This document shows positions 43,805-54,183 of a DNA stretch of 64,000 nucleotides, piece after piece. The stretch is from Trichlorobacter thiogenes (GTDB lineage: Bacteria > Desulfobacterota > Desulfuromonadia > Geobacterales > Pseudopelobacteraceae), in NCBI RefSeq assembly GCF_900167465.1, contig NZ_FUWR01000006.1:1-64000 (forward strand), in the 5' to 3' direction. The position numbers and the translations under genes were made by a program. Under the pieces are notes generated by a model. The model was not told the origin of the DNA, made no database searches, and saw only the letters and a list, made by a program, of their open reading frames with translations. Each line of letters starts with the position of its first letter. Within the stretch, counting starts at the first letter, position 1.

Positions 43805-45358
43805 CTACTTCTTCTCTATCTTATCCCAAGTCGGCTTTTCATTGGGATTCTGCAAACGGAACAGCAGATAGGCCGCAGCCTTTTTCAATTTTTCTGTTGT
43901 CTTGGCCTCTGTCGTAAAGCGTTCCAATGCCGCAATCATACATGCACGGGAGTAATCAGCAACCACCTCCTGCTCAATAATGGTTCGCAGGGAGGTCAAC
44001 ACCTGCTTTTGCTGCTCTGCCTCATCAAGCTTGCAGGGGTCCAGCAAAAAGACCAGTAACCAGGCGGTCACCCGCTCTTCAGTGCCGGTTGCAGACGCTG
44101 CAAACTGCAACAGGGCCGTTGCCAGACTGGTCTGTTCAGCCTGATTCAGCGAACTTTTCTCCAGGTAGTCCCGCAGGAAACGCAGTGCTGTCAAATGGTG
44201 CCGTTCACCAGAGACATTAAAAAGCAGCAGGTTGGCAGCCTGGGGTTTCAGTTCATCATGTTGATAGCTTTTCAGGAAGCTGTGCAAAATACGAGCGATC
44301 TTATCGGTGGCAAGTTCTGAAAGCCCGCCACCGGTCAGCTTACTTCTGACCGTTGACAGCAGATCCTGTTTCACCGGATGCCCGCTGTACACCACCGCCA
44401 TGATGCCATCTTTAACCTCATCATCAGCAGCAAACTCCCACAATTCCTCAACCTGCTTCAAGATGGTGGAACGGAAACGCTTAACCTTGTCCATCTTGGT
44501 AATTTCTTCCGGTTCCCAGCTCTCCGGCCAGGTATCAATATGGTTGTCAACCTCATCCTCATTCCAGGTTTTATCAAGCAGGAAGGTAAAATAGGTAAGA
44601 ATTTTGAGCTGGTAAACCTTACCCCCCTCCTGCAGCGGACGCAACAGATCTTCCAGGTAGCTGGCAGTCAGGCCGCAGGTGCCGCTACAGAGGAAACGGT
44701 AGACGCTCTCCCCTTTTTCCACCTGCTTCTCGATATATTTTGCCTTAAGGTGGGCGCCCAGAGCGGTAGTGGAAACCTTCTTGAAGAAGACCGACAGCAG
44801 GTTGGTGGCATGGTGCTTGACCGGCATCTCGATCTCATCTGAGAGCACGATATCAAGACAGGCGTTAAAGATCTTAACCTGTTCCGGCTCATCTTCAGAG
44901 GCATCGATGTACTGTTCAAGGATATCGATAATCTCGACAATATGGGAGCGGTTGCGACTGGAAAGCAGGCTGGTCAGGGTAATCCGCAGCGAATCGGCAT
45001 CAACAATACCAAACAGAAAGCGAACTGCCGCGTTACGCCGGGCCGGACCTTTGTGCTCAGCAGAACGCAATACCTGCAAAATACTGGCAGCAGGATCAGC
45101 CACCCAGCCCGGAATCAAGGCCTCCAGCAGCAGTTCCGCCTTGCGGCGGATATGGGCATCCAGATCGTTCACAAAGTAGCGGGCGATCTCGATCTTAAAC
45201 TCACGACCGGCATTGGATTCAATAATCAATGAAAAGGCAGCCGCCTTATCCTTGGCCGAAAGCTTGGCCATATCTTTCTTGGCCCGGGCACTGTCATTAA
45301 TCTTGATATAGAATCCAATAATATCTTTAACGCCAACTTCTGCTTCAATATCCTTCAT
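43805..45358 (-). CDS. Helical (HEAT-like) repeat protein, unknown function
   Basis: 517 aa, soluble and almost all helical. Repeating pairs of helices (for example RYFVNDLDAHIRRKAELLLEAL, RRNAAVRFLFGIVDADSLRITL) resemble HEAT/armadillo repeats, suggesting a protein-binding scaffold. No catalytic motif is apparent; it ends lysine-rich. It sits directly before the MCP gene and after rnhA (45-bp gap) on the same strand. A link to chemoreceptor arrays is possible only by position. Confidence 0.5.
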   Translation of the reverse strand: MKDIEAEVGVKDIIGFYIKINDSARAKKDMAKLSAKDKAAAFSLIIESNAGREFKIEIARYFVNDLDAHIRRKAELLLEALIPGWVADPAASILQVLRSAEHKGPARRNAAVRFLFGIVDADSLRITLTSLLSSRNRSHIVEIIDILEQYIDASEDEPEQVKIFNACLDIVLSDEIEMPVKHHATNLLSVFFKKVSTTALGAHLKAKYIEKQVEKGESVYRFLCSGTCGLTASYLEDLLRPLQEGGKVYQLKILTYFTFLLDKTWNEDEVDNHIDTWPESWEPEEITKMDKVKRFRSTILKQVEELWEFAADDEVKDGIMAVVYSGHPVKQDLLSTVRSKLTGGGLSELATDKIARILHSFLKSYQHDELKPQAANLLLFNVSGERHHLTALRFLRDYLEKSSLNQAEQTSLATALLQFAASATGTEERVTAWLLVFLLDPCKLDEAEQQKQVLTSLRTIIEQEVVADYSRACMIAALERFTTEAKTTEKLKKAAAYLLFRLQNPNEKPTWDKIEKK

Positions 45359-45403
45359 GGCACCCTCTCACTGGGTAATGACACCGTGTATTTTTCGATC
45401 AGA

Positions 45404-45874
45404 TCAATTCTGATTCTTCATAGCACTAATCGCTTCCCTGGCCAAACAATCGCAACGCTCGTTTTCTGCATGTCCAGCATGGCCGCGCACCCACTGCCAG
45501 ACCACCTGATGGGGCTTGACCGCCTCAACCAGCGCCTCCCAGAGATCTTTATTAAGCACCGGTTCTTTCTTGCTGTTCTTCCAGCCGTTGCGTTGCCAGC
45601 CCGACAACCACTCGGTCATCCCCTTTACCAGATACTGGGAATCAGTGGTTATGGTTACCCGACAAGGACGGGTCAACTGCCGAAGCCCCTCAAGGGCTCC
45701 GGTCAGTTCCATCCGATTGTTCGTGGTCTCTGCAGCAGCACCGGACAGTTCTTTTTCCTTACCACGACAGCGTAGAATGGTGCCGTAGCCACCGGGACCG
45801 GGATTACCACTGCAGGCGCCGTCACAGAAAATCTCGACATCCGTCAGGGCCTTACTTTTCAACGCGTCCGACAT
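45404..45874 (-). CDS. rnhA: Ribonuclease HI
   Basis: 156 aa. Acidic metal ligands in [14 protein letters not shown] (Asp ~18), MELTGAL (Glu ~55), TDSQYLVKG (Asp ~78) and the late ERCD (Asp ~142), with catalytic His in VRGHAGH near 130. It degrades RNA in RNA:DNA hybrids. ATG follows AGGAAGG; the gene overlaps the end of plsC by 23 bp. Confidence 0.95.
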
Positions 45875-46514
45875 AGGCCCCTTCCTGTTTCAGCAGTTCT
45901 GCAATCCCCTCCATCACCCGTTCAACAATCAGCTGATGAGTCTCCTTGCAGTCCTCAAGCACAAACAGGTCATCAAAGATGATCTGTGGCCCAAAGACAA
46001 TCGCCCCCTTGGCCCCCAGACTGGGAAATGTCCAGTGGTTCAGCCCTATCAGGGCTGTAGGTACAACCGTTGGCCGGGTATCAAAGATCAACTTGCCGAC
46101 GCCACGGTTGCCCGGTCCCAATCTGCCATCTTTATGACGGGTTCCCTCAGGGAAAAGCATCACCTTCTGATCAGCCAGCAGATCGTTCAGGACCTTGCCG
46201 GCCTTGACATCCCTGCCCCGTCGCACCGGAAAGGCTCCCCATGATGAATAGATAAAGCGCTGAAACGGTTTGCGAAACAGTTCTTCCTTGGCCGGTGCCC
46301 AGAGCATCTGGAGCGGGTGCCTGCGTAAAGCGGCCCAGGGGAGAAAAATCGTTTCATAGGCCGAGATGTGATTGGAGGCCAACAGCACACCTCCTGCATC
46401 AGGGATATGCTGTTCTCCCTTGATTTTCATACGATTCAACAGCGAGGCGTAGATGCCAACCACATTAATCGAAAAGGTCACCCAAAAGCGCTGTAGAAAT
46501 GAAGCCTTTGCCAC
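45852..46514 (-). CDS. plsC: 1-acyl-sn-glycerol-3-phosphate acyltransferase family protein
   Basis: 220 aa from GTG 46514 (GGAAG upstream). One N-terminal hydrophobic helix, then the acyltransferase motifs: N48-H49-x4-E54 in SNHISAYE, where the family normally has NHx4D, and the substrate motif FPEGTR near 118. It should convert lysophosphatidic acid to phosphatidic acid at the inner membrane face. The Asp-to-Glu change at the catalytic pair is unusual; the enzyme may still be active. Divergent from the EAL-HDOD gene, with rnhA downstream. Confidence 0.82.
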
Positions 46515-46620
46515 GTTCTTCCTTTACTGCCAAATGTAAGTTTTAGTTGTAGTCACCCTATACCATGCAATGGGCTGTTCAGCAATAACTCAGGGGCAAA
46601 TCTGACATAAACGGTGCCGA

Positions 46621-46649
46621 TTGCACTTAAAGGACAGATAGCGTATACT
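46621..46649 (+). promoter_or_regulatory. Sigma70 promoter of the mutS2 operon
   Basis: TTGCAC (46621-46626), 17-bp spacer, TATACT (46644-46649). It predicts a start near 46656, about 50 bases before the ATG at 46705. Confidence 0.75.
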
Positions 46650-46704
46650 CAACTCCTTTCATCAAGTAACTATGCCCAGATATCAGGCAGGATACCCGAC
46701 ACCT

Positions 46705-47940
46705 ATGGAGCAATCAGAACAAAAATACCTGATCGGACGCCAACCGATCCTGAACCGTGATGAGCAGATCTGTGCCTATGAACTGCTTTTCCGCTCAGCT
46801 CAATCCCTGGCTGAGGCCAATGTCAGCGACGCCTCCCAGGCAACCGCCAGCGTTATCCTGAATACCCTGGCCGGATTTGGGGTCAAGCAGATTCTGGGCA
46901 AGCATCTGGGATTTATCAACCTTGAGCTTGATATCCTGATGAGTGACTCCCTGGAACTGCTACCCAAAGAGATGATCGTCCTTGAACTGCTTGAAACCCT
47001 TGAGGTCACCCCGGCACTGATCGAGCGCTGCCGTGAACTGAAAGAGGCCGGGTTTGTGCTGGCCCTTGATGATCATGACTACGACCCGATCTACGAAGAG
47101 CTGTACCAGATTATTGATATCGTCAAGGTGGACCTGATGGCCACCCCGGTGGACACCATCGGTGCAGCTGTTGAGTGCTACCGCAATTATCAGTTTAAGC
47201 TGTTGGCAGAAAAAGTGGAAACCAAGGAAGAATTTCTGAAATGCCTGGATCTGGGTTTTGATTATTTCCAAGGCTACTATTTTGCCAAACCAGCAGTCAT
47301 TGAAAAGAAGAAGATTGATGAGGGCGGCGCCGCGCTTTTAAAACTGATGCGTCAGTTAATGGATGACGCCGAGATGGAGGAGGTTGAAAAGACCTTCCGC
47401 AGCAGTCCGGGTCTGACCTACAAACTGCTCCTACTGGTCAACTCTGTCTCCTTTGTGGGACTGCAGAAGATCCAGACTGTACGCCACGCCATCAGCATGC
47501 TGGGCAGGGCACAGATCAAACGCTGGGTACAGTTGGCCCTGTTTGCTACCGATGACAGTCATGCCATGGAAAACCCGCTGGTGGATATGGCAGCGGTGCG
47601 GGGTGGCTTCATGGAGCAGATGGCAACCGCCTGCCCGCGTCTGCGGGGTAACCGTGAGGCAGCAGACCAAGCCTTTATGACCGGCATCCTGTCGCTGCTT
47701 GAATCGCTGTATGATATCCCCATGGGACAGATTGCGGAAGAATTGAACCTGTCGGAGGATGTGCAACAGGCACTGGTCAGCCGGGAAGGGATCTACGGCA
47801 ACCTGCTTGCCCTGGCCGAGGCCCTGGAGCAGGTTGACTTTGTCAAGGCATCAGAGTTATTGGGTGCCCTCTCTATCCCCTACAGCACGGTTATGGATGC
47901 CCAGATGAAGGCCTACAACTGGCAGGCAGGCATGGGCTAA
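46705..47940 (+). CDS. EAL-HDOD signal transduction protein
   Basis: 411 aa from ATG 46705 (MEQSEQKYLIGRQPILNRDEQ); an ATG at 46672 lacks a ribosome site. Residues ~5-205 are an EAL-like domain of the YuxH type, but the signature is ELL in AYELLFR and the metal motif DDHDYDP differs from DDFGTGY, so phosphodiesterase activity is doubtful. Residues ~210-405 are an HDOD domain (SSPGLTYKLLLLVNSVSF, IQTVRHAISMLGRAQIKRW). Such proteins are regulatory. First gene of a coupled operon, overlapping the GGQ gene by one base. Confidence 0.85.
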   Translation: MEQSEQKYLIGRQPILNRDEQICAYELLFRSAQSLAEANVSDASQATASVILNTLAGFGVKQILGKHLGFINLELDILMSDSLELLPKEMIVLELLETLEVTPALIERCRELKEAGFVLALDDHDYDPIYEELYQIIDIVKVDLMATPVDTIGAAVECYRNYQFKLLAEKVETKEEFLKCLDLGFDYFQGYYFAKPAVIEKKKIDEGGAALLKLMRQLMDDAEMEEVEKTFRSSPGLTYKLLLLVNSVSFVGLQKIQTVRHAISMLGRAQIKRWVQLALFATDDSHAMENPLVDMAAVRGGFMEQMATACPRLRGNREAADQAFMTGILSLLESLYDIPMGQIAEELNLSEDVQQALVSREGIYGNLLALAEALEQVDFVKASELLGALSIPYSTVMDAQMKAYNWQAGMG

Positions 47941-48317
47941 TGGCCACCAGCCCGACCTTTGCGGTCAGTGCAAAAAAACAGCAGGCCCTGCTGGCCCGTA
48001 TGCTGGAACTGAATGTCCGTGAAGAAGAGATTGAAGAACAGTTTGTCCGCTCCTCCGGCAAGGGGGGGCAACATCTTAACAAGACCTCAAGCTGCGCACA
48101 GGTTCGCCACCTTCCCACCGGCATTGAAGCCCGTTGCGGACGTGAACGCAGTCAGTCCCTGAACCGCTTTCTGGCCCGACGTGAACTGCTGGAGAAAATC
48201 GCCCGCAGTCGCGGTCTGCCCACGGTTGAAGATGAAGAGGCTGCCAGAATCCGTAAACAGAAAAGCCGTAGAAACCGCCGTTCAACCCATAAACGACAGA
48301 ATACCGACACCCCATGA
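47940..48317 (+). CDS. ArfB/YaeJ-like peptidyl-tRNA hydrolase (GGQ release-factor domain)
   Basis: 125 aa. A stand-alone release factor domain with the catalytic motif SSGKGGQHLNKTSS near 38-51; there are no codon-recognition domains. A strongly basic tail (RIRKQKSRRNRRSTHKRQN, ~102-120) matches the ArfB tail that enters the empty mRNA channel of stalled ribosomes. It should hydrolyse peptidyl-tRNA during ribosome rescue. ATG overlaps the preceding TAA, and its end overlaps mutS2 by 4 bp (ATGA), so it is coupled to both. Confidence 0.85.
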   Translation: MATSPTFAVSAKKQQALLARMLELNVREEEIEEQFVRSSGKGGQHLNKTSSCAQVRHLPTGIEARCGRERSQSLNRFLARRELLEKIARSRGLPTVEDEEAARIRKQKSRRNRRSTHKRQNTDTP

Positions 48318-50668
48318 TCTCTCACACAACCCTTTGCCGTCTTGAATTCAATAAGGTCCTGCAGGTGGTTGCAGGCCATGCCCGTAGCGATGCCAGCACC
48401 GCAGCCATTCTGGCTGTTGCTCCACTACAGTCTGCTGCTGCCATCACCCTCTCTTGGCAGCGGATCGAGGAAATCCGCACCCTGCTGCGCCAACGGATCA
48501 GCCTGCGGATCAGCCGTTTCAGTGATATCCGCCCCCTGCTGGATCAGGTACGACCGGACGGAGCGATCCTCTCCCCCTTTGGCCTGCTGGAGTTCATTCC
48601 GGTGCTGGGATCACTGGCAGAACTGTACAAACAGCTCTCCCCGCGGGATGACATCCCTGCCCTGCGCCTTTTGGAACCGTTTCCGGTGGCCTTCAGCGAT
48701 ATCCTTGAACCGCTCTCTGCCACACTGGATGATGAAGACACCATTCTGGACTCTGCCTCCCGCGAACTGGCCGAAATCCGCAAGGCCAAGCGGGCCCTGG
48801 CTGCCCGGGTGCGCCGCAAGCTGGAAGAGTTTGTCCGCAGGCATGAAACCGCCATCTTCCTGCAGGATGACTTCATCACCATTCGTTCCGGCCGCTGGGT
48901 CATCCCGGTGCGGATGGATTCCAAGGGGATGGTGCCGGGGGTGGTGCATGATGTCTCCTCATCCGGTGAAACCGCCTTTATGGAGCCGCTGGAGATCATC
49001 CCGTTTGTCAATGAACTGGAAAACCTGTCTGCCGAAGAAAAGGCAGAAGAGATCCGCATCCTGCGGCAACTCTCTGCCTGGATCAGGGAAGATGCAGACC
49101 GGATCGCCGCCTGTTTCACCACCCTGGTGGAGCTTGATCGTCTGGACTGCATCGCCCGCTTTAGCGAGCAGTTCAACATGGCAGTACCTGAATTAAATCA
49201 GAACGGTGCGCTGCGACTGCTTTCCGCCCGCCACCCACTACTGATGGTGATGCGGGCAGAGCAGCAGGATGCCACACCGATTGTCCCCTTGGATCTGGAG
49301 CTTTCCACCTCGCAGGTACTTGTGATCAGCGGCCCTAACGCCGGTGGCAAGACCATCGCCCTTAAAACCGTCGGCCTGATCACTGCCATGGCCTTGTCCG
49401 GTATGCCGGTGCCAGCCTCCCCCTCCTCATCCATACCACTGCTGGATGCCCTGTTGGTGGATATTGGTGATGAACAGTCGATAGAGCAAAGCCTCTCCAC
49501 CTTCTCGGCCCATGTGGCTGCCATCAGCAAGATTCTGGAACAGGCCGGTTCCCGCAGCTTGGTACTGCTGGATGAACTGGGTACCGGTACCGAACCGCTG
49601 CAGGGGGCTGCCATTGGCTGCGCTGTCCTGCAAGAGCTGCAACAGCGGGGCGCTGTGGTGCTGGCCACTACCCACCTGACCGAGATTGTCGGTTTTGTCC
49701 AGCAGACCAGTGAAATGCAGAACGCAGGCATGGAGTTTGACAGTGCCAGCTGGACCCCGCTCTACCGGCTGGTAATGGGAGAGCCGGGACAGTCCCATGC
49801 CCTGGAAACTGCCCGGCGTTATGGTCTGCCTGAATCTGTCCTACAGACCGCCCGTGCTCTGTTGGGGGATGCTGGTACCGCCTTTTCAAACATCATTGAA
49901 GAGCTGCGCCAGAAACGGAATGCACTGGCTGATGAGCTTGCAAATCAGCAGCAGGAACGGCAACGTCTTGATGGGCTTGCTATGAGCCTGAAACAGCAAG
50001 AGGCTGATCTCGTCCGCCTGCGACAGGAAACCATTGAAAAGGCTCGGGCTGACGCACGGGATACCATCACCGCTGCCCGCCGTGAGATGAATCAGCTGCT
50101 GGAGCAGTTCAAGCAGGATCGCCGCAAGGAAACAGAGGTAAAATTCAGGCAGAAGGCAGAAGAGCTGGAAGCCAGCTTTGCCCCCACCGGACAGCAGCCC
50201 CCATCCGCTGATGCGCTACAGCCGGGCAGCATTGTGCAGGTGCGCTCTCTTGGGCGGGAAGCCACGGTCACCAGTGTGGATCAGGCCCGTCAAAAGGTAC
50301 GGGTCAGGGCAGGCAGCATCGAGATGGAGGTACCGCTGCACGGCCTGATAATCGGCAGCAGCACAGCAGGTTCCAAACCGCGTAAAAATGCACCTGAGAT
50401 CAAGATGAAGCTGCAGTCTGAAGAGTCCGCCAATGAACTGAACCTGATCGGCAAGCGGGTGGAAGAGGCACTGATTGAGCTGGAAGGGTTCATTGATCAG
50501 GCTGTTCTGGCCGGACAGCGGGAAATCAGGATCATCCATGGTATCGGCACCGGTACCCTGCAGCGGGCAGTGCGGGAGTTTCTGAGTCGGCATCCACAGA
50601 TAAGCTCCTTCCGCCCCGGTGAACCACACGAAGGCCGCGACGGTGCAACCGTTGCTGAACTGGGATAA
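48314..50668 (+). CDS. mutS2: MutS2 family ATPase with Smr domain
   Basis: 784 aa. Helical core/lever (~1-320), ATPase with Walker A GPNAGGKT near 340-347, Walker B LVLLDELGTGTEP near 415, a coiled coil (~515-640), a KOW-like domain (QPGSIVQVRSLGREATV near 635) and a C-terminal Smr domain. Smr keeps HGIGTG but has LNLIG where LDLRG is usual, so nuclease action may be reduced. MutS2 has been tied to suppressing recombination and, in B. subtilis, to sensing and splitting collided ribosomes. Its overlap with an ArfB-like gene supports the second role. Confidence 0.93.
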   Translation: MISHTTLCRLEFNKVLQVVAGHARSDASTAAILAVAPLQSAAAITLSWQRIEEIRTLLRQRISLRISRFSDIRPLLDQVRPDGAILSPFGLLEFIPVLGSLAELYKQLSPRDDIPALRLLEPFPVAFSDILEPLSATLDDEDTILDSASRELAEIRKAKRALAARVRRKLEEFVRRHETAIFLQDDFITIRSGRWVIPVRMDSKGMVPGVVHDVSSSGETAFMEPLEIIPFVNELENLSAEEKAEEIRILRQLSAWIREDADRIAACFTTLVELDRLDCIARFSEQFNMAVPELNQNGALRLLSARHPLLMVMRAEQQDATPIVPLDLELSTSQVLVISGPNAGGKTIALKTVGLITAMALSGMPVPASPSSSIPLLDALLVDIGDEQSIEQSLSTFSAHVAAISKILEQAGSRSLVLLDELGTGTEPLQGAAIGCAVLQELQQRGAVVLATTHLTEIVGFVQQTSEMQNAGMEFDSASWTPLYRLVMGEPGQSHALETARRYGLPESVLQTARALLGDAGTAFSNIIEELRQKRNALADELANQQQERQRLDGLAMSLKQQEADLVRLRQETIEKARADARDTITAARREMNQLLEQFKQDRRKETEVKFRQKAEELEASFAPTGQQPPSADALQPGSIVQVRSLGREATVTSVDQARQKVRVRAGSIEMEVPLHGLIIGSSTAGSKPRKNAPEIKMKLQSEESANELNLIGKRVEEALIELEGFIDQAVLAGQREIRIIHGIGTGTLQRAVREFLSRHPQISSFRPGEPHEGRDGATVAELG

Positions 50669-50670
50669 CC

Positions 50671-50982
50671 ATGAGCGAGTTCATTATTGAGGTATCAGAA
50701 GAAGAGGTCAGGCGTGAACGGGACAAATCCCGTGAACTGCGCCGCAGCCGCTGGTGGAAGAACCGGCTGGCATTAGGCGTCTGCCACTGGTGCGGCAACC
50801 GCTTTAGTCCGGATGAGCTGACCATGGACCATATCGTACCGGTCACCCGTGGCGGCAAGGCCAGCCGGAACAATGTGGTGCCATCCTGCAAGGAATGTAA
50901 CAGCCGTAAAAAATACCTGCTGCCGATGGAATGGGAAGAGTACCTGACCAAGGCCCGGCAACCGGAAGAGGACAAGGCATGA
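50671..50982 (+). CDS. HNH endonuclease domain protein
   Basis: 103 aa. Zinc pairs CHWC and CKEC flank the HNH core TMDHIVPVTRGGKASRNNVVPSC; the N-terminal 30 residues are charged (EEEVRRERDKSRELRRSR). Small stand-alone HNH proteins are widespread, with DNA nicking assumed but targets unknown. Its place 2 bp after mutS2 and 4-bp overlap with the HAD gene make it part of the operon rather than a mobile intruder. Confidence 0.85.
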   Translation: MSEFIIEVSEEEVRRERDKSRELRRSRWWKNRLALGVCHWCGNRFSPDELTMDHIVPVTRGGKASRNNVVPSCKECNSRKKYLLPMEWEEYLTKARQPEEDKA

Positions 50983-51608
50983 CTGCACGCTACAAGGCGA
51001 TAATCTATGATTGTGACGGAGTTATCCTGGATTCAATCGAATCCAACTACATCTTCTACAACCGGATCATGGCCGGGCTGGGCCGCCCGGAGATTGACCG
51101 GCTCTGCACTGAATCAGAGCGGGTACTGCACACCTTTTCCTATCTGGATGTAATTGAGCATTTCTTTGGCAAAGATCCGCAGAAGGCTCAAGCCATCGCC
51201 ATCGGCAAGACCATCCGCTACAAGGAACTGATGCCGTACATGCGGCGTGAGGATGGACTGGTGGAAACCCTGACCGCTCTGAAAGGAAAGGTAGAACTGG
51301 CGATCTGCACCAACCGGGCAGCCTCCATGGAGATGATCATCGAAGACTTCGGTCTGGAAGGATTCTTTGGTTGTGTCATGACCGCCGCCAAAGTCAAGAA
51401 TCCTAAACCCCACCCGGAGCCACTCTTGAAGGTGCTGGAACATTACGGTCTTAGCCCGCAGGAGGCGCTGTTTGTGGGTGACAGCGCGGTGGATATGCAG
51501 GCTGCAGCCGCAGCCGGAGTGCCGTTCATCGCCTACAAATCAGACCTGCCTGCCTTGGCGGTGATAGAGCGACACCAAGACCTGCTGGAGCATGTTCTGC
51601 CCCAATAA
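50979..51608 (+). CDS. HAD family hydrolase (Gph-like phosphatase)
   Basis: 209 aa from ATG 50979, which overlaps the HNH stop (ATGA). Motif I DCDGVILDS near 10-18 (nucleophile Asp10), motif II CTNR near 109, motif III lysine in KNPKPHPEPL near 140 and motif IV VGDSAVDMQAA near 163. It resembles phosphoglycolate phosphatases; phosphoglycolate arises from 3'-blocked DNA ends as well as metabolism. Substrate unproven. Last gene of the mutS2 operon. Confidence 0.85.
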   Translation: MTARYKAIIYDCDGVILDSIESNYIFYNRIMAGLGRPEIDRLCTESERVLHTFSYLDVIEHFFGKDPQKAQAIAIGKTIRYKELMPYMRREDGLVETLTALKGKVELAICTNRAASMEMIIEDFGLEGFFGCVMTAAKVKNPKPHPEPLLKVLEHYGLSPQEALFVGDSAVDMQAAAAAGVPFIAYKSDLPALAVIERHQDLLEHVLPQ

Positions 51609-51633
51609 AAAAGGCACCGTTTCCGGTGCCTTG
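51608..51633. terminator. Bidirectional terminator
   Basis: AAAAAAGGCACC-GTTT-CCGGTGCCTT between the HAD gene (plus) and ntrC (minus). The A-tract on the left gives the minus-strand T-tract, so it best terminates ntrC transcripts. Confidence 0.75.
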
Positions 51634-51637
51634 CAAA

Positions 51638-53080
51638 CTAATCTTTTTTAATACTTATCCCTAACTCACTGATCTTCTTACGCAGGGTGTTGCGGTTGAT
51701 CCCCAGCACATCCGCCGCACGAACCTGGTTACCTCTGGTCTTTTCAAGCACGTAGCGGATCAAAGGCCGCTCCACCTGCTCCAGCACCCGGTCGTAAATA
51801 TCCCCTTTATCCAGCTTCTCAATCCCGTTCATGGAGCTGCGCAGTTTGCCTTCAACCAGCGATTCCAGCGACTGTTCCTGGGGTACGGCATGGATGGTTT
51901 CCTGACGATTGGTCAGGCCTGCAAAATCAGCAATGGTCAGCAATGGATCGCTGGAGAGGATAACGCCACGTTTGATGGTATTTTCAAGTTCACGCACGTT
52001 ACCGGGCCAGGTGTAGCTGCAGAGCAGCTCCATCGCTTCAGGGGCGCACTGTTTGGTCGGTATCTCAAGTTCTGCACAGGCACGCTCCAGAAAATACTCC
52101 ACCAGGGCGGGGATATCCTCACTGCGCTCACGCAGCGGTGCCAGATTGATCGGCACCACATTCAGGCGGTAGTAAAGATCTTCACGGAATTCGCGATTAC
52201 GCACCCGCTCCTGCAGTTCCTGGTTGGTGGCTGCCACCACCCGCACATCAACGCTCAGGTTCTGGGAACCGCCAATCCGGGTAATCTCCTGCTCCTGTAG
52301 TACCCGCAGGATCTTGGCCTGCAGATCCAGCGGCATGTCACCGATTTCATCCAGAAAGATGGTGCCATGGTTGGCCTGTTCAAACTTGCCGGTCTTGCGC
52401 TCGGTAGCCCCGGTAAAAGCGCCCCGCTCACTGCCGAACAGCTCGCTCTCCAGTAGGTCTTTGGGGATGGCAGCACAGTTGATCGCCACAAACGGCTTAC
52501 CCAACCGGGTTGAGTTGAAGTGAATCGCCCGGGCAATCAGCTCTTTACCGGTGCCGGATTCCCCCTGAATCAGCACGGTAATATCACTGCCGGCCACCTT
52601 GCCGATGGTCTTGTAGACCTCCCGCATGGCGGTTGAATTACCGATGATGTTCTTTTCGACCTGATAGCGGTCCTTCAGTTCCTGCTTCAGCAGGGTGACC
52701 TGATTGCTGACATCCCGCGCACGGCTGACCTTTTCAATAATCGCGTCGATTACCTCAAGATCAAACGGCTTGGTGATGTAGTCATAGGCACCGCGCTTCA
52801 TCGCCTCAACCGCATTCTTCATGCTGGCCTCGGCGGTCATCACCACCACCAGCAGGTCCGGCCTCAGTTCCCGTGCCTTGTCCAGAAACTCCAGACCGGA
52901 CATGCCGGGCATCTTGATATCCACAATCACCAGGTCATAGGACTGTTCCCGCACCTGACGCAGGGCCTGATTACCATCTGCAGCCAGATCTACCGAGTAC
53001 CCTTTTTTGCGCAACGCCTTGGAAAGTACCCAGCGCATGCTCTCTTCATCATCAGCCACCAATATCCGATGCAGTCCCAT
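51638..53080 (-). CDS. ntrC: Sigma54-dependent response regulator, NtrC family
   Basis: 480 aa. Receiver with phosphoacceptor Asp54 (VIVDIKMPGM) and K104 region TKPFD; AAA+ domain with Walker A GESGTGKE near 169, the sigma54-contact loop GAFTGA near 221 and Walker B FLDEIGDM near 240; C-terminal Fis-type helix-turn-helix (NQVRAADVLGINRNTLRKKI). It activates sigma54 promoters when phosphorylated. The dusB-ntrB-ntrC order is the classic nitrogen-control arrangement, but Geobacter has many similar regulators, so the signal could differ. Confidence 0.88.
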   Translation of the reverse strand: MGLHRILVADDEESMRWVLSKALRKKGYSVDLAADGNQALRQVREQSYDLVIVDIKMPGMSGLEFLDKARELRPDLLVVVMTAEASMKNAVEAMKRGAYDYITKPFDLEVIDAIIEKVSRARDVSNQVTLLKQELKDRYQVEKNIIGNSTAMREVYKTIGKVAGSDITVLIQGESGTGKELIARAIHFNSTRLGKPFVAINCAAIPKDLLESELFGSERGAFTGATERKTGKFEQANHGTIFLDEIGDMPLDLQAKILRVLQEQEITRIGGSQNLSVDVRVVAATNQELQERVRNREFREDLYYRLNVVPINLAPLRERSEDIPALVEYFLERACAELEIPTKQCAPEAMELLCSYTWPGNVRELENTIKRGVILSSDPLLTIADFAGLTNRQETIHAVPQEQSLESLVEGKLRSSMNGIEKLDKGDIYDRVLEQVERPLIRYVLEKTRGNQVRAADVLGINRNTLRKKISELGISIKKD

Positions 53081-53085
53081 GCTGT

Positions 53086-54183
53086 TTATCCTTTCGCGGG
53101 TGACTGAATCAGCGGTAGCAACACACTGATTTTGGTCCCCTGTCCCGGTTTCGACTCAATTTTCAACATACCGCGATGTTCCGCTACTATCTTCTGGCAG
53201 ATGGCCAGCCCCAGCCCGGTACCGTTATCCTTGGTACTGAAAAACGGCGTGCCCACCTTGGCAAGATTTTCTGTGGAGATCCCCGGACCGGTGTCAGCCA
53301 CTTCCACCGCCACCATCCGTGAACGATTTTCATTACGGGCCAGATGATATTCAGCCAGTACCCGGCTGGATACCGTGACCCGCCCACCTTCCGCCATCGC
53401 CTCAATGGCATTGCGGATCAGGTTTAAAAAGACCTGGGTCAACTGGGCCTCATCAGCCATGATCGGCGGGATACTGGGATCAAATCCGGTGGAAATGGTG
53501 ACGTCACGATCAGCGGCAGCCTCCCGCTGCAGCAGGATGATATCCCCCAGCACCATATGCAGGTTAACCGGGGTATAACGTGGTCCACGGGGTGAGGCAA
53601 GATCCAGCAGCTGGCGGATAATCCGGTCGATCCGTTCTGCCTCTTTTATCATCACCCTGGGATATTCCAGCAGGTCGCTGTCCTCATCCAGCTCCCGTTC
53701 CAGCAGTTGGGCAGCCCCTTTGATTCCTCCCAGCGGATTTTTAACCTCATGGGCCAAACCGGCAGCCAGGGTACCCAGGGTGGCAAGACGGTCTGCCTGC
53801 CTGACAGCGGCCTCCAGTTCACGGATTGAAGTCAGATCCCGCAGGGTTAATATGACGCCGATAGCCTCACCATCAGAGCGCAGTAGCGGACAGGTGGTGG
53901 CATTGGCAGGAATCACCCGCCCGGATGGGCTTAACACAACATTATCCTGATCTGAAAGGGAGACACCACTGGCAGATGTCCGCTCAACCATATCAACCAG
54001 GATCGGTTCAGCCTTAAAGGAGTCGATAAAACGTGAGCCAACCACCTGACGCCGGGAACGGCCAGTCATCTCTTCGGCAGCCGGGTTCATCAACGTCACC
54101 ACCCCTTCTCCGTTGATCACGACTACCCCGTCCCCCACACTGTCAAGCACCGTAAGGGCGTATCCACTCAGGTCAGTATGCAC
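53086..54183 (-). CDS. ntrB: PAS-domain histidine kinase, NtrB-like
   Basis: 365 aa, soluble. PAS (~8-120), dimerisation domain with phosphoacceptor His145 in LAHEVKNPLGGIKGAAQLLE, and an ATPase domain with NLIRNAIEAMAEGG (N box), ADTGPGIS and GTGLGLAICQKIV. No membrane segments, as expected for NtrB. GTG start at 54183; GGAG lies rather far upstream, inside the dusB end. It presumably phosphorylates the NtrC-like protein 5 bp downstream. Confidence 0.88.
   Translation of the reverse strand: MHTDLSGYALTVLDSVGDGVVVINGEGVVTLMNPAAEEMTGRSRRQVVGSRFIDSFKAEPILVDMVERTSASGVSLSDQDNVVLSPSGRVIPANATTCPLLRSDGEAIGVILTLRDLTSIRELEAAVRQADRLATLGTLAAGLAHEVKNPLGGIKGAAQLLERELDEDSDLLEYPRVMIKEAERIDRIIRQLLDLASPRGPRYTPVNLHMVLGDIILLQREAAADRDVTISTGFDPSIPPIMADEAQLTQVFLNLIRNAIEAMAEGGRVTVSSRVLAEYHLARNENRSRMVAVEVADTGPGISTENLAKVGTPFFSTKDNGTGLGLAICQKIVAEHRGMLKIESKPGQGTKISVLLPLIQSPAKG

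Follow-up and report, generated by a model that had tools for sequence, protein, structure and literature searches.

The window analysed here, a stretch of 64,000 nucleotides from Trichlorobacter thiogenes, contains a gene for a small GGQ protein that overlaps the gene for MutS2. RFR, the name given here to the family of this GGQ protein (47940-48317), and MutS2 probably form a two-protein ribosome-associated quality control (RQC) that is hydrolytic and replaces RqcH. Sequence comparison demonstrates four features on which this reading is built: a relationship of RFR to the human mitochondrial protein mtRF-R/C12orf65, its coupling to MutS2 in two phyla, its mutual exclusion with RqcH, and a foreign MutS2 lineage in the order to which the window belongs.

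According to the ORF listing and the sequence, RFR and MutS2 lie among five plus-strand genes (46672-51608) that overlap or nearly touch, as the first-pass annotation had described. The features are as follows.

46515..46671, no strand: intergenic region of 157 bp with divergent plsC (sequence); presumed promoter of the cluster
46672..47940, plus strand: EAL-HDOD protein (Pfam EAL and HDOD), first gene of the local cluster; accessory
47940..48317, plus strand: RFR, the GGQ protein, 125 aa (Pfam RF-1, 77 bits; GGQ codons 48063-48071)
48314..48317, plus strand: ATGA shared by the RFR stop and the MutS2 start (sequence); probable translational coupling
48314..50668, plus strand: MutS2, 784 aa (TIGR01069, 770 bits; MutS_V ABC ATPase, KOW/MSSS SH3, SMR)
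50222..50341, plus strand: KOW/SH3 (MSSS) domain of MutS2 (Pfam PF20297, E 1.7e-8)
50438..50662, plus strand: SMR domain of MutS2 (Pfam PF01713, E 3.6e-24; DxH replaced, HGIGTG kept)
50671..50982, plus strand: small HNH protein, 103 aa (Pfam HNH, E 2e-12); accessory
50979..51608, plus strand: HAD-family phosphatase, 209 aa (Pfam HAD_2, E 1.6e-28); accessory

The EAL-HDOD and RFR genes share one nucleotide (TAATG), RFR and MutS2 share four (ATGA), a gap of 2 nt separates MutS2 from HNH, and HNH and HAD again overlap by four (ATGA). The EAL-HDOD gene could also start at the in-frame ATG at 46705. The single promoter proposed earlier for the cluster did not find support: the scan of 44500-53500 revealed no sigma-70-like site on the plus strand, and its three sites are below the chance level (5.0 in shuffles). 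A TATACT with a poor -35 can be noted by eye at 46645-46650, within the 157-bp gap between the cluster and plsC. A hairpin is located at the end of the cluster (51611-51632); its T-run fits the opposite strand. As for the proteins, Pfam and NCBIfam agree with the first-pass annotation for four genes, while its designation of the GGQ protein as ArfB-like had to be abandoned.

By sequence, the closest solved relative of RFR is human mtRF-R/C12orf65 (7a5h_C, E 4e-17), followed by RF1 (3e-11), RF2 (4e-11), PrfH (1e-9), and ArfB (2e-3, with all ArfB values at least 1e-3). The protein consists of the PF00472 RF-1 peptidyl-hydrolase domain (77 bits), with no codon-recognition domains, a basic C-terminal helix, and an N-terminal helix carrying the FAVSxxKN motif, which is conserved across the bacterial family. 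The RFR gene was found in all 57 relatives, and the GGQ is invariant among the 22 aligned ones. The scores against the ArfB model NF006718 (38.6 bits, cut-off 100) and the PrfH model (55.7 bits, cut-off 166.65) are low. In the AlphaFold2 model (pLDDT 85), the strands 31-37, 51-57, and 63-66 are present and the inserted helix is absent; that is, the class-1 insertion, which adds about 20 residues to ArfB sequences, is missing from RFR.

In the Foldseek comparison, mtRF-R (TM 0.61/0.66) is the only full-length structural match of RFR, with an alignment of 101 residues that takes in the C-terminal helix, compared with 61-73 residues for most rows of RF1, RF2, and PrfH; this structural preference is one of aligned length and TM-score only, as Foldseek E-values and the tied VIA Z-scores do not separate mtRF-R from the GGQ domains of RF1 and RF2. 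In the tree, RFR and C12orf65 occupy one side of a branch with a support of just 66/81. A clade of C12orf65 and ArfB is rejected (AU p 0.027), as is the grouping of C12orf65 with a second small GGQ family (p 0.006). The model score, the insertion, the tree, and the coexistence with ArfB in the same genomes rule out an ArfB identity, and on these comparisons the GGQ protein is related to mtRF-R/C12orf65. A profile search of genome contigs with the RFR alignment returned mostly RF1 and RF2, because they share the GGQHVNK pattern with RFR; it gave three true RFRs directly (L071-L073), and the genomes found in this way led to RFR members in Nitrospirota and Omnitrophota.

MutS2 of the window contains Pfam MutS_V, MSSS, and Smr and scores 770 bits with TIGR01069 (cut-off 400); both MutS_I and MutS_II are missing in the Pfam search. 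In the window and its relatives, the nuclease DxH (DLH) motif of the SMR domain, by which an SmrB-type collision nuclease is recognised, is replaced by LNLIG or similar, and HGxGxG is retained. The MutS2s linked to RFR form one clade (SH-aLRT 100) that includes none from RqcH-bearing genomes; MutS2 of the window falls there together with those of RFR-linked Nitrospirota. The Geobacterales MutS2 stands apart from that of RqcH-bearing class-mates (AU p 5e-9), and these trees show that the order carries a foreign MutS2 lineage. One row of the first MutS2 tree (L378) was a wrong-strand reading and was dropped from later analyses.

RFR is directly followed by MutS2 in 32 of the 40 relatives, spanning all four families of the window's order. 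The exact -4 overlap occurs at 22 of 31 measurable same-strand junctions, including family f20 from another class, and the four-nucleotide overlap is also found in Nitrospirota (L309, L311, L312). Among 33 Nitrospirota loci, the two genes adjoin directly in five and are at most 1.9 kb apart on one strand in nine. In many genomes, RFR is not linked to MutS2; in six sampled ones, family f32 among them, no MutS2 was detected, and it was not found in the stretch examined around RFR of families f82 and f83. Co-occurrence of RFR and MutS2 taken alone is weak (p 0.07). Judging by gene order, RFR and MutS2 are the conserved core of the cluster.

RqcH (PF05833, NFACT) was not found in the window's genome or in any of the 42 genomes searched, in which controls were detected. 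In the window's phylum, RFR is encoded by 44 and RqcH by 40 of 197 genomes, with an overlap of zero against nine expected (Fisher p 2e-5); counted by family among MutS2-bearing genomes, the exclusion has p 0.0035. In the window's class (117 genomes) the numbers are 60 and 46, again with no overlap, and the same is true of 197 Nitrospirota genomes (78 and 86), except for a divergent RFR branch coexisting with RqcH in five of them. In the same phylum genomes, ArfB coexists with RFR in 9 of 44 and with RqcH in 20 of 40; thus, the exclusion between RFR and RqcH is specific.

It is known that B. subtilis MutS2 splits collided ribosomes, with no nuclease action needed (PMC10897456), and that mtRF-R hydrolyses peptidyl-tRNA on split large subunits, not on 70S ribosomes (PMC8786322). 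By analogy with B. subtilis, MutS2 would recognise collided ribosomes through its KOW and SMR domains and use its ATPase to split them, so that peptidyl-tRNA remains on a 50S subunit. By analogy with mtRF-R, the GGQ loop of RFR would then enter the empty peptidyl-transferase centre, the basic C-terminal helix holding the protein on the 50S, and hydrolyse the peptidyl-tRNA, so that the stuck protein is cut off and not tagged. This hydrolysis would substitute for Ala-tailing by RqcH, which is absent from these genomes. Of the readings considered, the earlier proposal of splitting by MutS2 and peptide release by the GGQ protein has the best support, and the adjacency in two phyla, the MutS2 clade, and the RqcH exclusion strengthen the case beyond what the first-pass annotation had.

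Unlikely in our view is that RFR serves as a stand-alone ArfB-like backup in the empty A site of 70S on truncated mRNA, its proximity to MutS2 only grouping rescue genes. It does share the GGQ domain and the basic C-terminal helix with ArfB, the window's genome has no ArfB match at E 1e-15, and RFR occurs in the six genomes lacking MutS2; however, it is far from ArfB in score and insertion, coexists with it even in f20, where RFR is coupled to MutS2, and excludes RqcH, not ArfB. Moreover, mtRF-R, the closest studied relative, shows no release in vitro on 70S or 55S (PMC8786322). It is also quite unlikely that RFR acts on 50S split by another factor (HrpA-, HflX-, or RRF/EF-G-like), MutS2 working elsewhere, e.g., in recombination control, and the linkage being a co-inherited transferred segment. 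MutS2 was initially tied to DNA processing, RFR exists without MutS2 in f32 and elsewhere, and additional splitters are known (PMC11633108); against this, the four-nucleotide overlap recurs in two phyla in otherwise different neighbourhoods, the linked MutS2s form one clade, and MutS2 retains its ribosome-binding domains KOW and SMR.

That the exclusion of RqcH is an accident of clade history, the genes being scattered by descent with no functional replacement, seems very unlikely, although both are clade-clustered and the MutS2 tree gives an independent-pairs test no power. The overlap is zero in three samples, the family-level count remains significant, RFR and RqcH switch within the single family f82, and ArfB shows no such exclusion. 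Hardly credible is the view of the first-pass annotation that the whole set of five genes works as a single rescue system under stress, HNH and HAD processing nucleic acid and EAL-HDOD supplying the input (here, c-di-GMP). The order is tight, with overlaps, and is found in the window's genus and several other genera of its family. However, both arrangements are confined to the window's own family (f1), with EAL-HDOD beside RFR in only 13 of 40 relatives and HNH with HAD alongside the pair in 17 of the 40, whereas the pair persists without them in f2, f3, f4, f20, and Nitrospirota. Conservation of gene order, suggested earlier as a check, therefore holds for two genes and fails for five; the neighbourhood comparison rejected the single five-gene system. 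Most RFR-MutS2 pairs lack the three other genes, so that no evidence connects these with the mechanism, and by this distribution they are local passengers.

These results suggest that some RqcH-less bacteria cut off the stuck protein, without tagging it, to release the blocked large subunit. RFR with MutS2 may well represent a second type of bacterial RQC, without tailing, in which the MutS2 splitter and an mtRF-R orthologue make up a transferable two-gene module displacing RqcH; this would be the bacterial equivalent of mtRQC, and perhaps its origin. A review (PMC8786322) gives RqcH/RqcP, with no release factor, as the bacterial counterpart of mtRQC and counts the identity of the splitter feeding mtRF-R among the open questions. 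MutS2 is paired with RqcH in a survey of rescue genes that does not address MutS2-bearing bacteria lacking RqcH, many of which are in its table (PMC11633108). An open-access literature search returned no paper on C12orf65 with MutS2, or on MutS2 with peptidyl-tRNA and Geobacter. An mtRF-R relative coupled to a known splitter in RqcH-free genomes would fill both gaps and, if true, would hint at the kind of splitter upstream of mtRF-R. The system is testable in culturable Geobacter, and RFR would offer a simpler bacterial model of mtRF-R, the loss of which leads to human mitochondrial disease.

Among known systems, PrfH/RFH with RtcB (PMC6514570) is likewise a special-purpose bacterial RF-1-domain protein in a conserved operon, but it has an anticodon-recognition-like domain and an RNA ligase partner, whereas RFR lacks this domain and is linked to MutS2. 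ArfB/YaeJ and mitochondrial ICT1 are also codon-independent GGQ hydrolases with a basic C-terminus; RFR differs from ArfB in the features given above. The B. subtilis RQC consists of MutS2 and RqcH/RqcP, with Pth (PMC10897456, PMC11633108); in the window, the partner coupled to MutS2 is a GGQ hydrolase in place of a tailing factor, RqcH is missing from all the relatives searched, and MutS2 itself comes from a lineage other than that of RqcH-bearing class-mates. The closest system is human mitochondrial mtRQC (mtRF-R, also named MTRFR, with MTRES1; PDB 7a5h; PMC8786322), whose small RF-1-domain GGQ protein has the basic C-terminal helix and, like RFR, no codon-recognition domains; RFR, in turn, is bacterial, carries the N-terminal helix with FAVSxxKN, and is coupled to MutS2, a splitter known from B. 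subtilis.

The first-pass annotation had read five genes as one operon, a candidate ribosome-rescue system. All five lie where it placed them, as seen in the ORF listing and the sequence of this genome (3.57 Mb, 42 contigs), and its domain calls for EAL-HDOD, MutS2, HNH and HAD agree with the domain searches. The junctions from gene 1 to gene 5 are TAATG (1 nt), ATGA (4 nt), a 2-nt gap and ATGA (4 nt). The single promoter that had been assumed was not supported by the promoter scan. The features are as follows:

46621-51608: the five-gene cluster
47940-48317, plus strand: GGQ protein of 125 aa, whose family is named RFR here
48062-48068: seven consecutive G across the GGQ codons, where slippage within the catalytic motif is possible
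48314-50668, plus strand: MutS2
50671-51608: small HNH protein and HAD phosphatase

All 57 relatives gave an RFR-type match, the best one being only RF1/RF2-like in a few incomplete genomes. The expected conservation of gene order holds for RFR followed by MutS2, the latter lying directly 3' in 32 of 40 neighbourhoods (all four families of the order, 14 of 17 genera), but not for EAL-HDOD, which adjoins RFR in 13/40, or HNH+HAD, present in 17/40, both confined to the window's own family. No evidence was found that these three family-specific proteins take part in a rescue mechanism. The HNH and HAD genes, for their part, form a conserved pair that is never apart and stands behind MutS2 at those 17 loci. 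Of the 31 RFR/MutS2 junctions that could be measured, 22 have an offset of exactly -4 and 26 overlap; three genera have the genes apart and retain both. Outside the class, the pair occurs with a -4 overlap in f20, a family of another class. In Nitrospirota, RFR directly adjoins MutS2 in 5/33 loci (offsets -4, -4, -4, +2 and +9), and both lie on the same strand within 1.9 kb in 9/33. Since these outside loci have few other genes in common, the linkage does not resemble residual synteny. Gene order points to RFR–MutS2 as the conserved unit. Other translation-related neighbours of RFR, read by eye, are a YbaK-like Cys-tRNA(Pro) deacylase in family f10 (L191, L193, L194, L215) and a TruD-like protein in family f53 (L189).

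The GGQ protein had been called ArfB-like; its 38.6 bits on the ArfB model against a cut-off of 100, together with the rejection of a C12orf65+ArfB grouping in the tree test (p 0.027), rule this out, and sequence and model alike indicate that it is not ArfB. In the sequence comparison with solved structures, the closest relative is human mtRF-R/C12orf65 (7a5h, E 4e-17), followed by mouse C12orf65 (7e-15), RF1 and RF2 (~1e-11), PrfH (1e-9) and ArfB/ICT1 (1e-3 or worse). The inserted helix of class-1 ArfB is absent from RFR, as it is from C12orf65, a division set out in PMC6514570. An AlphaFold2 model built from 22 relatives (mean pLDDT 85) superposes on mtRF-R over 98-101 residues, including the C-terminal helix (TM 0.61/0.66; Z 8.0 over 101 residues in a second comparison), and most rows for RF1, RF2 and PrfH structures align over 61-73 residues only. 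Trees place C12orf65 with the bacterial RFR proteins with modest support (66/81).

Besides RFR, many relatives have a second family of small GGQ proteins, about 105-120 aa long, with GSGPGGQHRNTTDSAV... and a basic tail (L220-L229 and L233-L235 in Geobacterales, L231-L232 in f53). It groups nearer to ArfB than to mtRF-R, and its grouping with C12orf65 was rejected (p 0.006). The ArfB L238 (family f59), with the N-terminal residues IDEQFVRSSGPGGQHVNKTSTAVQ, is more RFR-like than the remaining ArfBs and may sit close to where the two families diverge.

RFR and RqcH are mutually exclusive, a divergent Nitrospirota branch apart. In the order, RqcH (PF05833) was found in none of the 42 genomes searched, and MutS2 in all 42. 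Among 197 genomes of the phylum, where RFR was cleanly told from RF1/RF2 by E-values of 1e-33 or better versus about 1e-21 or worse, 44 have RFR, 40 have RqcH over the cut-off and none has both (Fisher p 2e-5, treating genomes as independent, which they are not); six RFR genomes there gave no MutS2 match. The corresponding counts are 15, 14 and 0 for 52 MutS2-bearing families (p 0.0035, with the same treatment of non-independent families), 60, 46 and 0 for 117 class genomes, and 78 (strong matches), 86 (over the cut-off) and 0 for 197 Nitrospirota genomes. Both genes cluster by clade, and the independent-pairs test lacked power. Within family f82, genus g161 has RFR without RqcH, and seven genomes of other genera the reverse. 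Because ArfB occurs alongside RFR in nine and alongside RqcH in 20 of the phylum genomes, the exclusion is specific to RqcH. Nitrospirota also gave seven weaker RFR-like matches, five of them in RqcH-bearing genomes (L279-L283); these make up a divergent branch of the RFR family with a long basic tail (LKERILE.KKK..EKKRLR.K), the sole exception to the exclusion.

In a MutS2 tree of 92 sequences, a clade of 32 unites all Geobacterales, f20, f12, f53 and RFR-linked Nitrospirota (SH-aLRT 100, unchanged with one bad row removed). By genome, 31 members are RFR-bearing, one has neither gene and none has RqcH; the Nitrospirota rows were picked for linkage and therefore give no independent evidence on this content. 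MutS2 of RqcH-bearing Desulfuromonadia is placed elsewhere, its constraint with Geobacterales MutS2 being rejected (p 5e-9). The window's MutS2 belongs to a lineage apart from theirs. In three of these class-mates (L183-L185), MutS2 is followed by a protein reading as DnaG primase, unlike in Geobacterales. The RFR tree, based on short sequences, agrees: MutS2-linked RFRs of both phyla fall together, and the f82/f83 copies are nested in Geobacterales. We infer that the pair was transferred into the Geobacterales ancestor, replacing a MutS2–RqcH pathway.

RFR and MutS2 are each of a known kind; their combination, the exclusion of RqcH and the spread as a module appear to be new. Among the open-access papers searched, none names C12orf65 together with MutS2, and the available text of the release-factor review PMC6514570 neither reports such a bacterial link nor mentions MutS. 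In B. subtilis, the KOW and SMR domains of MutS2 bind collided ribosomes without mRNA cutting, and its ATPase splits them, leaving 50S-peptidyl-tRNA for RqcH (PMC10897456). According to domain search and motif comparison, the Walker motifs, KOW and the SMR HGxGxG are conserved in the window's MutS2, and DxH has been lost. This MutS2 would split ribosomes, after which RFR would hydrolyse the peptidyl-tRNA, and coupled translation may hold the two proteins in proportion. Partnered by the S4 protein MTRES1, human mtRF-R has split large subunits bearing peptidyl-tRNA as its substrate and is inactive on intact ribosomes in vitro; according to PMC8786322, its splitter had yet to be found and no release factor was known to act in bacterial RQC. 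RFR would be expected to have an S4 partner resembling Hsp15 or RqcP; Hsp15 with a C-terminal extension is a reported mark of species without rqcH (PMC8012679).
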